IMG/VR virus record: IMGVR_UViG_3300028840_001676
Span: 1-29,547 of that record
Length of the DNA stretch: 29,547 nucleotides
Direction: 5' to 3' (one strand)
Origin: a virus
A model generated the notes under the pieces. That model was given only the letters and a program-made list of their open reading frames with translations. It ran no database searches and was not told the DNA's origin. The translations under genes were made by a program, and so were the position numbers. Below are positions 2,821-9,637 of this stretch, one piece after another; position 1 is the stretch's first letter; each line of letters opens with the position of its first letter.

Positions 2821-3051
2821 TTATTGTTCTGGATTCACCTGTATTTGTAGCGTCGAGCGCTCATCATACCAACGCTGCCCGCGGTGATAAGAGTCATCCT
2901 TATCAGCCGATGCCTTCCCAGTTACGACAAGCCCGTTCTGCCCGCGATAAAATTCCCGCACACCGTTCGGTGTAGCGACTAGCGCCATGCATCCGCTTAC
3001 GACGAACGCCGTCACGTTTATTGCAATAAGTGTATATAGTAGTTTAGCCAT
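2821..3051 (-). CDS. Small phage lipoprotein (76 aa)
   Basis: The N-terminus MAKLLYTLIAINVTAFVVSGC has a short positive end, a hydrophobic core and a lipobox (VSGC, Cys about residue 21), so the mature protein would be a lipid-anchored periplasmic peptide of about 56 residues, rich in charged residues and beta-prone. The start is preceded by AGGAGGCTATT. It lies in the early block, not with the lysis genes. Small lipoproteins of this size in early regions include superinfection-exclusion proteins such as T5 Llp, which block the phage receptor; that is an analogy from size and location, with no sequence match claimed. Confidence 0.72.
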   Translation of the reverse strand: MAKLLYTLIAINVTAFVVSGCMALVATPNGVREFYRGQNGLVVTGKASADKDDSYHRGQRWYDERSTLQIQVNPEQ

Positions 3052-6270: not shown

Positions 6271-6301
6271 CGTAGGATATATACAACTATGGAGGCTATA
6301 T

Positions 6302-7315
6302 ATGAAATTGAACATTCAAAAGGCAGCACGTACGCAACGAAAAGCGAAGATCTGTTTGGCAGGTCCAAGCGGCAGCGGCAAAACGATGACCGCTTTAAGG
6401 GTCGCTCGCGGGCTTGTGGGCGATGCTGGCAAGATCCTGGTACTTGATACTGAACGCGGCAGCGCGTCGCTCTATAGCGATGTCACCGATTATGACGTGG
6501 CGGAGCTGCCTAACTTCTTATACGACACATATATTTCGGGCATCAAAGAGGCTGAAAAACTAGGCTATGACTGCCTTGTCATCGATTCGCTATCCCACGC
6601 TTGGCAGGAATTTCTCGACCAACATACGAAGATGCAGGGTAATAGCTACGTCAACTGGTCAAAGATCACGCCGAAATATAACGAGCTTATACAGGCAATC
6701 GTAAACTATAGCGGGCACATTATCGTGACGATGCGCGCCAAAACGAAATACGAGATGGATGAGAAAAACAGACCATCACGCCAGTATATCGGGACAATCA
6801 TGCGAGACGGCACCGAATATGAGTTCGACGTGGTAGGGATGATCTCAATTGATCACAATATGACGATCGAAAAATCGAGGATCGCTAAACTCCAAGATCG
6901 AATCATCACAAAACCCGGTGAAGATTTCGGTGTTGAGGTAGCGGAATGGCTCGGCAATGCACCCGCGAAAAGCCCGGTGAACATTAAACCCGCGCCAGTA
7001 GCGAAAGAAAAGAAAGTTGTCGATATGAGTCAAATTATCGCCAAGTTTCACGCGATAGTTTCGACGCAAGTTATGACCGAAGAGACTGCTATTCAGGCGA
7101 TGCCGAACCGCTACGAATTTCCTGAAGGTATGACGCCGGAGGAAAAGCTGGCAATCCTTGAGCGCGTTATCCCGCAAGGTGGCTGCTACTCAAAACAAAA
7201 AAAGTGTGTGTTTAGCGTCAAAGCGCTGCCGCTCATGGAAAAGGTCTGGATTGAATGGCAAGCGCCGCACCACCACGAAGAAAATGCAACTGTTGAAATG
7301 ATGGAGGCTGAATAA
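6302..7315 (+). CDS. Sak4-like RecA-fold ATPase (recombination)
   Basis: A 337-residue protein with a RecA-type ATPase core. Walker A is GPSGSGKT at residues 21-28, a conserved LVLDTERGSASLY follows, and the Walker B strand is DCLVIDS. The IIVTMRAKTKYE and GTIMRDGTEYEFD segments fit the phage AAA_24 / Sak4-type family, which pairs single-stranded DNA and works with an SSB in phage recombination. The C-terminal third (from about 230) is a separate charged region with a GGCYSKQKKC patch. The gene starts behind GGAGGCTATATATG and leads a three-gene rightward operon. The family call is firm for a phage RecA-like NTPase; strand annealing is inferred. Confidence 0.82.
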   Translation: MKLNIQKAARTQRKAKICLAGPSGSGKTMTALRVARGLVGDAGKILVLDTERGSASLYSDVTDYDVAELPNFLYDTYISGIKEAEKLGYDCLVIDSLSHAWQEFLDQHTKMQGNSYVNWSKITPKYNELIQAIVNYSGHIIVTMRAKTKYEMDEKNRPSRQYIGTIMRDGTEYEFDVVGMISIDHNMTIEKSRIAKLQDRIITKPGEDFGVEVAEWLGNAPAKSPVNIKPAPVAKEKKVVDMSQIIAKFHAIVSTQVMTEETAIQAMPNRYEFPEGMTPEEKLAILERVIPQGGCYSKQKKCVFSVKALPLMEKVWIEWQAPHHHEENATVEMMEAE

Positions 7316-7826: not shown

Positions 7827-7953
7827 TAAAAAAATTGTAGGATTCCGCGCCACGCTTAGAGATTTGAAGAACCTTAAAAAGCTCATGAAAAGATGGGGCG
7901 AATCGGCAAGCGGCGCCATAAAACGCGCTCTTGAGATGTGTGCGAATAAATAA
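7816..7953 (+). CDS. Mini ribbon-helix-helix protein (45 aa)
   Basis: A 45-residue frame overlapping the Gp157-like gene by 11 bases, with AAGAGG before its ATG. A beta strand (KIVGFRATLRD) is followed by a helix (LKNLKKLMKRWG) and a second helix (ESASGAIKRALEMC), the complete minimal ribbon-helix-helix fold of Arc/CopG type. It is very basic. It closes the rightward operon and may regulate it, opposing or partnering the other such regulator at 5561. Confidence 0.65.
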   Translation: MGNDKKIVGFRATLRDLKNLKKLMKRWGESASGAIKRALEMCANK

Positions 7954-7985
7954 AAAAAGAGGCGGGCAAATGCCCGCCTTTATTA
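7952..7985. terminator. Bidirectional terminator between convergent operons
   Basis: AGGCGGGC (7960-7967) pairs with GCCCGCCT (7972-7979). On the plus strand it is followed by TTTATTAT, and on the minus strand by a run of seven T (7958-7952). It ends the rightward recombination operon and the leftward late operon. Confidence 0.85.
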
Positions 7986-8120
7986 TAGCCCAAGAAAAGG
8001 CTTAATGAATTCAACAATCGCCTGAGCAAATTGCGGCAACCCGAGCACCTCAAGAAATTGCGTGATGAACGCAATCAACCCAACGGCACCGGCTAATTTT
8101 AGTTTGTCTTTATTGATCAT
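7983..8120 (-). CDS. Small hydrophobic protein, holin candidate (45 aa)
   Basis: A 45-residue frame with a Lys-rich start (MINKDKLK), one clear hydrophobic helix (LAGAVGLIAFITQFLEVLGL) and a second shorter amphipathic one near the C-terminus (AIVEFIKPFLGL). GAGGAG lies before its ATG, inside the end of the upstream lipoprotein gene (11-base overlap). Being last in the lysis block and membrane-active in appearance makes it a holin or antiholin candidate, but no family match is recognised. Confidence 0.6.
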   Translation of the reverse strand: MINKDKLKLAGAVGLIAFITQFLEVLGLPQFAQAIVEFIKPFLGL

Positions 8121-8973
8121 CTTGTATACTCCTCAAGAGTTTATTGATTTCTATTCTATCATGCTCCGAAACCCTTATAGTTCGCTGATAAGGCGGAAGA
8201 GTCCCGCCACTATCGCCCAATAACCCGTTGAAACTGGCTTTCCAGATATATATAGCTCGCGCTCCTCGAAATCGCTCGGTGATTCTACCAAGCACATCTT
8301 CTCGCGTATATTTATACGGTAACCGCCAGATGTTTCCTCCGAGATCGAGATCGTACCCGTCGTTCGACCATCCGTGATCTGCATTGTCGAATAGGGCGAC
8401 GGCTTCATTGTGCAGCTCGCAAAAATCAGCGGCAGCGCAATCATCATCAGTGACTTCAAGCCCATTTTTGTTCCGTCCAATTCTAGCCTCCGGTAGAAAT
8501 TCTCTGAGCTTGTTTGCGACATATTCAAAATCTGAATTTTTCAAATCGTCTTCAAGCGCTGGCGTGATTATTAGCTCATCTCGATCTTTTATGTATGGGA
8601 TGATCTCATCATATGCGCTCATAGCCTTTTCAAGAATCGTATCATAGCCCGGCGCATCTGGACCGCTGCAGTTGCCCTTCCTCAAACAAACCGCATTTAC
8701 TAAAAAGACCTGCACGCTCTTAGGTCTCGAATCGCTCAAGAATGAAAGTAAGCAATCCGAATCTTCTCCGAACGAATCCCACAAAAACGAAACCGCTGGT
8801 GCGTCAATGCCATCCAGCATTTCAAACAATTGACCGCATTCAAAAGTTTCTGAGCGAAGCCCCAGAAGTGTTAAGCCGTGAAAGCGCGTCGGCTCTGGTC
8901 TGACATCGCTACTCTTTGAGCAACTAACACATAATAGAAAAACGATAAAACAAGCGCCTAAGATTTTCTCCAT
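8110..8973 (-). CDS. Large phage lipoprotein in lysis block
   Basis: The start is put at ATG 8973 (MEKILGACFIVFLLCVSC) because AAGGA precedes it and a signal sequence with a lipobox-like end (CVSC) begins there; an earlier ATG at 9006 is possible. The mature protein, about 270 residues, has at least seven Cys and alternates beta strands ending in polar residues with helices (APAVSFLWDSFG, SVQVFLVNAVCL, ELIITPALEDDL, ALFDNADHGWSNDGYDLD, ARAIYIWKASFNG). That pattern suggests a TIM-barrel or glycosidase-like fold on the outside of the inner membrane, but no family is recognised. It overlaps the endolysin gene by 16 bases and contains a second gene in another frame. Confidence 0.7.
   Translation of the reverse strand: MEKILGACFIVFLLCVSCSKSSDVRPEPTRFHGLTLLGLRSETFECGQLFEMLDGIDAPAVSFLWDSFGEDSDCLLSFLSDSRPKSVQVFLVNAVCLRKGNCSGPDAPGYDTILEKAMSAYDEIIPYIKDRDELIITPALEDDLKNSDFEYVANKLREFLPEARIGRNKNGLEVTDDDCAAADFCELHNEAVALFDNADHGWSNDGYDLDLGGNIWRLPYKYTREDVLGRITERFRGARAIYIWKASFNGLLGDSGGTLPPYQRTIRVSEHDRIEINKLLRSIQDDQ
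8175..8465 (-). CDS. Nested lipoprotein gene, spanin candidate (96 aa)
   Basis: Entirely inside the larger lipoprotein gene but in a different frame. From ATG 8465 it encodes a textbook signal peptide, MGLKSLMMIALPLIFASC, with Cys 18 as the lipidation site, then about 60 residues of strand-prone sequence (MQITDGRTTGTISISEE, GGYRINIREK) and a hydrophobic C-terminal segment (GYWAIVAGLFRLI). A GGAGG lies well placed before an in-frame TTG five codons upstream, and GGA again before the ATG. A nested lipoprotein gene in the lysis block recalls Rz1 of lambda; lipobox plus strands plus a C-terminal hydrophobic segment recalls the single-molecule spanin of phage T1. Either reading is inference. Confidence 0.55.
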   Translation of the reverse strand: MGLKSLMMIALPLIFASCTMKPSPYSTMQITDGRTTGTISISEETSGGYRINIREKMCLVESPSDFEERELYISGKPVSTGYWAIVAGLFRLISEL

Positions 8974-9383
8974 TGCGTGATCCTTCCATCGCCGTAGCGA
9001 TCCCACGTGTCAAGATGAACGAAAGTATTATAAAGCCCGATCCCTTTCCACTTTTTAAAATCAACGGCTAGGCTCCGAAAAGTATGTAAAGGCATGTTAT
9101 CCGGTGTTACATCAAAAGCGCAGCCTCTTGAATGCGCGCTCATACTAGCCCCATGACCTAGCCCTAAATGCTCTTTCGGCGTTCTATAGCCGCGTAGATT
9201 GAGACCTCTATGGTTGACTCGAAAACGCACGCCTAATTTCAGGCGAAACTCTTGCAAGATATCAAGCGCGTTTAAATCAATGCCAATAATGCCATGCGCT
9301 TCATAGCGTTTCATCGCTATAGGTGAAAGCACCTCTTCAGGTAAAAAGTTCGGGAAACGTTTATGCCAGTCTTCTACCTTCAT
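8958..9383 (-). CDS. M15-type peptidase, endolysin
   Basis: A 141-residue single-domain peptidase of the M15 (D-Ala-D-Ala carboxypeptidase / L-Ala-D-Glu endopeptidase) type. The zinc site reads SAHSRGCAFDV with His 84 and Asp 91, and the third ligand His 123 is in FVHLDTWDR. An NHRGLNLRGYRTP segment precedes them. It would cut the peptide stems of host peptidoglycan at lysis; no separate wall-binding domain is present, as usual for phages of Gram-negative hosts. No signal peptide is seen, so export depends on a holin. Coupled by ATGA to the XhlA-like gene upstream. Confidence 0.85.
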   Translation of the reverse strand: MKVEDWHKRFPNFLPEEVLSPIAMKRYEAHGIIGIDLNALDILQEFRLKLGVRFRVNHRGLNLRGYRTPKEHLGLGHGASMSAHSRGCAFDVTPDNMPLHTFRSLAVDFKKWKGIGLYNTFVHLDTWDRYGDGRITQWRKS

Positions 9384-9637
9384 TTGTGTGCGACCATGTT
9401 ATTGATTACCGCAATTAAACCCGCCATTGCACCACCGACTGTTGTCACGATCAAAGTATAGAGTTTAATATTGCTTTTATTTTCAGGCATGAAGAAATTC
9501 TTTAATGCGTGAAGCTCGGCTTTTAACTCTTGGTTTTCAAGCCGTAAGGATACTACCTCCGCTGAAACGTGCTTAATCTCTTTCTGAAGGCTGCGAATCT
9601 CAAAGAGTAATACCTGAATTAACTTGTCTTCGCTCAT
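9380..9637 (-). CDS. XhlA/holin-like membrane protein
   Basis: An 85-residue protein with an N-terminal coiled coil of about 50 residues (SLQKEIKHVSAEVVSLRLEN) and one C-terminal transmembrane helix at about 60-79 (LYTLIVTTVGGAMAGLIAVI). The architecture matches XhlA-type lysis accessory proteins that assist a holin. It lies between the fibre-associated gene and the endolysin gene, coupled by ATGA overlaps at both ends. It could be the holin itself or an inner-membrane spanin subunit, though the helix is C-terminal rather than N-terminal. Confidence 0.65.
   Translation of the reverse strand: MSEDKLIQVLLFEIRSLQKEIKHVSAEVVSLRLENQELKAELHALKNFFMPENKSNIKLYTLIVTTVGGAMAGLIAVINNMVAHK

Follow-up and report, generated by a model that had tools for sequence, protein, structure and literature searches.

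Can a small lipoprotein gene lie out of frame inside a larger lipoprotein gene that is not of the Rz type, and if so what might its product contribute to lysis? The question is raised by a minus-strand gene block in IMG/VR record IMGVR_UViG_3300028840_001676, the complete record being the window of 29,547 bases that was analysed here.

Organization of the lysis block

The first gene of the block in order of transcription encodes an 85-amino-acid protein (9380-9637, minus strand, as are all features of the block), which has a coiled coil and a C-terminal transmembrane (TM) segment and is a candidate holin. It is followed by an endolysin gene of the peptidase M15 family (8958-9383; Pfam PF08291, 3.3e-06; PHROG 894 endolysin, 1.5e-13), by the outer gene (8110-8973; 864 bases, 287 amino acids) with the inner gene (8175-8465; 96 amino acids) nested within it, and by a gene for a 45-amino-acid hydrophobic peptide (7983-8120) that overlaps the 3' end of the outer gene. 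This peptide was not assigned to a family and is a candidate holin, antiholin or small membrane partner. A hairpin (7960-7979) with a T run, resembling an intrinsic terminator, closes the block at 7950-7979. On the opposite strand, at 6302-7315 (+), lies a gene for a Sak4-like recombinase/ATPase (PHROG 1366, 1.3e-70; PHROG 124, 2.7e-19).

A single relative was found, record IMGVR_UViG_3300025674_000280 (L002), with an identical gene order. Both frames are open from end to end in L002, with 57% identity for the outer protein and 63% for the inner protein; the endolysin is 68% identical and the 45-amino-acid peptide, at 82%, is the most conserved of all the block products. Searches of viral contigs with the outer protein, the inner protein, the endolysin, the 45-amino-acid peptide and the motif WKASFNGL returned no relative beyond L002, and two scans of genome contigs gave none either, the 34 pattern matches of the second including no relative. 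Phage and plasmid collections likewise gave no relative, the one weak match being to Salmonella phage SPFM1 (E 1). None was detected among 369 genomes of one bacterial class, a result that says little as this search had no positive control.

Evidence that the inner frame is a gene

The first-pass annotation of this DNA had described a 96-residue frame at 8175-8465, with the lipobox FASC, inside an 864-base gene with a signal of its own, and the coordinates, frames and signals were all reconfirmed. The inner frame is +1 relative to the outer frame and falls fully within 8110-8973, the inner ATG being at 8465 and the outer ATG at 8973. No out-of-frame sense ORF in the 20 same-strand genes checked is longer: counted from its first ATG it runs to 115 codons, and the runner-up to 74.

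We regard the inner frame as almost certainly a real gene nested in the +1 frame, because L002 keeps both frames, synonymous divergence drops in the nest and random recoding never reaches the real similarity. Synonymous divergence, taken as Nei-Gojobori pS in the outer frame between the window and L002, was 0.92 in the unnested 5' part and 0.42 in the nested part; for the endolysin it was 0.84. Where the amino acid was conserved, codons were identical at 30 of 86 positions outside the nest and at 41 of 61 inside it (Fisher p 1.2e-4). Substitutions that are silent in both frames were enriched 4.6-5.7 fold, a value that rests on 4-5 sites. Purifying selection is therefore seen in both frames, with synonymous suppression over 8175-8465, and the sole relative is not one that keeps the outer frame and breaks the inner one. 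When the outer codons were redrawn synonymously at random (20,000 draws for the window and 8,000 for L002), the inner frame stayed open in 2-5% of draws and inner identity was about 0.29-0.30, with a maximum of 0.50 in the window draws and 0.45 in the L002 draws, against a real value of 0.625. Outside the nest the +1 frame has 20% identity and 9-10 stops per phage, compared with 62.5% and no stops inside it.

Another explanation for the reduced number of synonymous changes is that the inner frame is untranslated and that the DNA or RNA itself is constrained. Under a null that conserves nucleotides generically, inner identity by itself can indeed match the real value; however, the frame was open in just 9-10% of these draws, and an open frame with a BLOSUM score at least equal to the real one occurred in 0.5-3.5%, at a nucleotide identity above that of the real pair. 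The suppression also peaks at the third codon position of the outer frame; this is the second position of the inner one, as expected if the inner frame is coding, and the lipobox is retained in L002 while the signal peptide sequence itself has diverged. Constraint on RNA or DNA as the cause of the conservation is disfavoured by the simulation, and we consider it very improbable.

Start of the inner gene

The GGAGG reported ahead of the inner frame is present, at 8487-8491, but its relation to the ATG did not hold up, as it lies 21 nt from that codon and only 6 nt from an in-frame TTG at 8480. The TTG is missing in L002. The inner ATG is kept in L002, and in both phages a weak Shine-Dalgarno-like site is found six bases 5' of it (8466-8475), reading CGGA in the window and AGGA in L002. 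Given that L002 retains the ATG and the weak upstream site and has no TTG, the ATG is the better-supported start for translation of the inner gene. The TTG with its GGAGG (8478-8491) could be a second start, giving a product of 101 amino acids, in the window phage only.

The outer protein

The first-pass annotation had held that a lipoprotein gene is nested in the lysis block within a gene that is not Rz-like. This is borne out. Rather than the N-terminal TM segment and periplasmic coiled coil of an i-spanin, the outer protein of each phage carries a lipobox-like signal by motif scan and inspection, non-canonical in the window (CVSC) and canonical in L002 (LISC). Pfam and PHROGs gave no family match, at cut-offs of E 1 for the window phage's protein and E 10 for its L002 counterpart.

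The model of the outer protein is weak (pLDDT 47) and has an alternating strand-helix pattern that resembles a TIM-barrel glycoside hydrolase. Its best match among solved structures was 3wfl, a GH5 mannanase, with Z 8.8 and an rmsd of 4.0 across 175 residues. This likeness to GH5 and related enzymes concerns the outer protein only, and it differs from an established family member in that identity is 10%, the model is of the low confidence given above and catalysis is putative. The best matches by far among viral models (BFVD) were A0A6J5M538 (E 1.5e-08) and A0A6J5SYH0 (E 6e-06), uncharacterized proteins of uncultured Caudovirales with 20-22% identity to the outer protein.

The inner protein and its possible role in lysis

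By the same motif scan and inspection, the inner protein has a signal peptide with the lipobox FASC (Cys18) in the window and TASC in L002, the kind of N-terminal lipoprotein signal that a unimolecular spanin (u-spanin) carries. Its AF2 model is of low confidence (pLDDT 58) and consists of four beta strands and a C-terminal helix (residues 80-95; GYWAIVAGLFRLISEL / GFWAILLTAFRLLNEL). The inner protein matched no Pfam or PHROG family, and no meaningful match to a spanin or any other family was obtained in Pfam, PHROGs or the PDB; structure searches with the model returned common small beta sheets only, none of them trustworthy. No i-spanin-like partner was recognized within the block.

An outer-membrane lysis role for the inner protein is plausible. 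As the likeliest reading, at somewhat less than an even chance, we propose that its product is a non-canonical outer-membrane lysis lipoprotein that is o-spanin-like in its place and its anchor. The product would be exported and lipidated at Cys18, and the lipid would hold it on the inner face of the outer membrane with the small beta-rich domain and the amphipathic helix in the periplasm. Once holin and endolysin had opened the inner membrane and the wall, the inner protein would serve in the final step of lysis, at the outer membrane, in the manner of an o-spanin but by a non-canonical route. Its C-terminal helix might insert into or pull on a membrane, or dock on a membrane protein of the block, and would not span the inner membrane. 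A bolder proposal, and one we think rather unlikely, is that the block represents a new outer-membrane lysis system in which two lipoproteins from overlapping frames, one hydrolase-like and the other small and beta-rich with a helix that seeks membranes, disrupt the outer membrane together in the absence of any canonical spanin, the cassette moving between unrelated phages.

The first-pass annotation had suggested, with the single-molecule spanin of T1 in view, that the inner protein may be a spanin linking the two membranes, its C-terminus being the inner-membrane end, and this is the part of it that the analysis does not bear out. Such a protein, of the T1 gp11 type, would have its lipid in the outer membrane and its C-terminal helix in the inner membrane and would fuse the two; the position of the gene downstream of the endolysin, the lipobox and, in the low-confidence model, the beta-rich middle with a C-terminal helix would fit, and the mature part of 79 amino acids is not obviously too short, as two-component spanin complexes have 62 to 300 periplasmic residues (PMC6139136). 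However, the C-terminal helix is a short amphipathic one in which Arg91 and Glu95 do not vary, and it is no canonical TM segment: its best 19-residue KD mean is 1.15 (0.91 in L002), compared with 2.97 for the TM segment of T1 gp11 by the same calculation. In addition, Cys58 in the mature part is conserved in the window phage and L002, and a periplasmic cysteine occurs in none (0/58) of the catalogued u-spanins (PMC6139136). A true u-spanin is for these reasons a doubtful assignment, and we judge it distinctly unlikely.

The main rival to an o-spanin-like lysis lipoprotein has the inner protein working with the larger hydrolase-like lipoprotein, as its partner, inhibitor or regulator, both of them on the outer membrane. 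Nesting would secure the co-inheritance of two such genes, both are common to two otherwise unrelated records, both products have lipoprotein-like signals, and a small beta domain of the kind modelled is a common shape for a binder. Nesting alone does not imply interaction, however, and the inner protein has no fold or family match to an inhibitor or a binder, which leaves this an unlikely account of the locus. It is also conceivable that the gene is in the lysis operon by chance and specifies superinfection exclusion or receptor masking, as do the small phage lipoproteins T5 Llp and Cor. Phage lipoproteins of about the size of the inner protein are known to act in this way; against this, the gene sits within a shared lysis block and its product has no sequence match to a known family, and we take this to be an improbable reading.

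A shared and probably mobile module

The possibility of a non-canonical lysis lipoprotein draws further weight from what the two phages have in common. A protein-level comparison across both full records identified as shared only the block, that is the 85-amino-acid protein, the M15 endolysin, the outer and inner genes and the 45-amino-acid peptide, together with one small lipoprotein gene. This pattern suggests that the block travels as a unit and is probably a mobile lysis module exchanged between otherwise unrelated phages. Such exchange argues that the parts of the block work together, and by this linkage it becomes more probable that the nested gene functions in lysis. The additional lipoprotein gene lies at 2821-3051 (minus strand) in the window and encodes 76 amino acids with the lipobox VSGC; the relative's copy, at 6284-6556 (minus strand) in L052, encodes 90 amino acids, and the two are 40% identical. 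No Pfam match was obtained for this second lipoprotein, and the window protein also had no PHROG match.

Comparison with embedded and unimolecular spanins

Nested lysis lipoprotein genes are known in genes of the Rz type, and the present arrangement differs in that the host gene is a large, enzyme-like lipoprotein gene. In the literature searched, coverage of which was incomplete, there was no description of a lipoprotein gene nested in a gene of this kind. Nested genes such as this one are easily overlooked: of the 528 two-component systems in a spanin survey, 196 lacked an annotated CDS for the o-spanin (PMC6139136). It has also been considered that other topologies could act as spanins (PMC6139136), and among 677 surveyed phages that infect Gram-negative hosts, 91 have no recognizable spanin (PMC6139136); the inner lipoprotein is therefore a concrete candidate for an alternative route through the outer membrane.

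In an embedded two-component spanin, the o-spanin lipoprotein gene is nested in the i-spanin gene (PMC6139136), and the inner gene is likewise a lipoprotein gene embedded out of frame, with the outer product as its putative partner. As in lambda Rz/Rz1, a small lipoprotein gene lies wholly within a larger gene and directly after the endolysin gene; unlike in lambda, the gene around it encodes a lipoprotein-like signal and a globular, hydrolase-like body (287 amino acids), with neither an N-terminal TM segment nor a coiled coil. With the unimolecular spanin T1 gp11, the inner gene shares a place late in the lysis block, a lipobox and, in the low-confidence model, a beta-rich middle with a C-terminal helix, whereas it differs in that its protein combines the absence of a canonical C-terminal TM segment with one conserved periplasmic cysteine, and in that the gene is nested and not free-standing.
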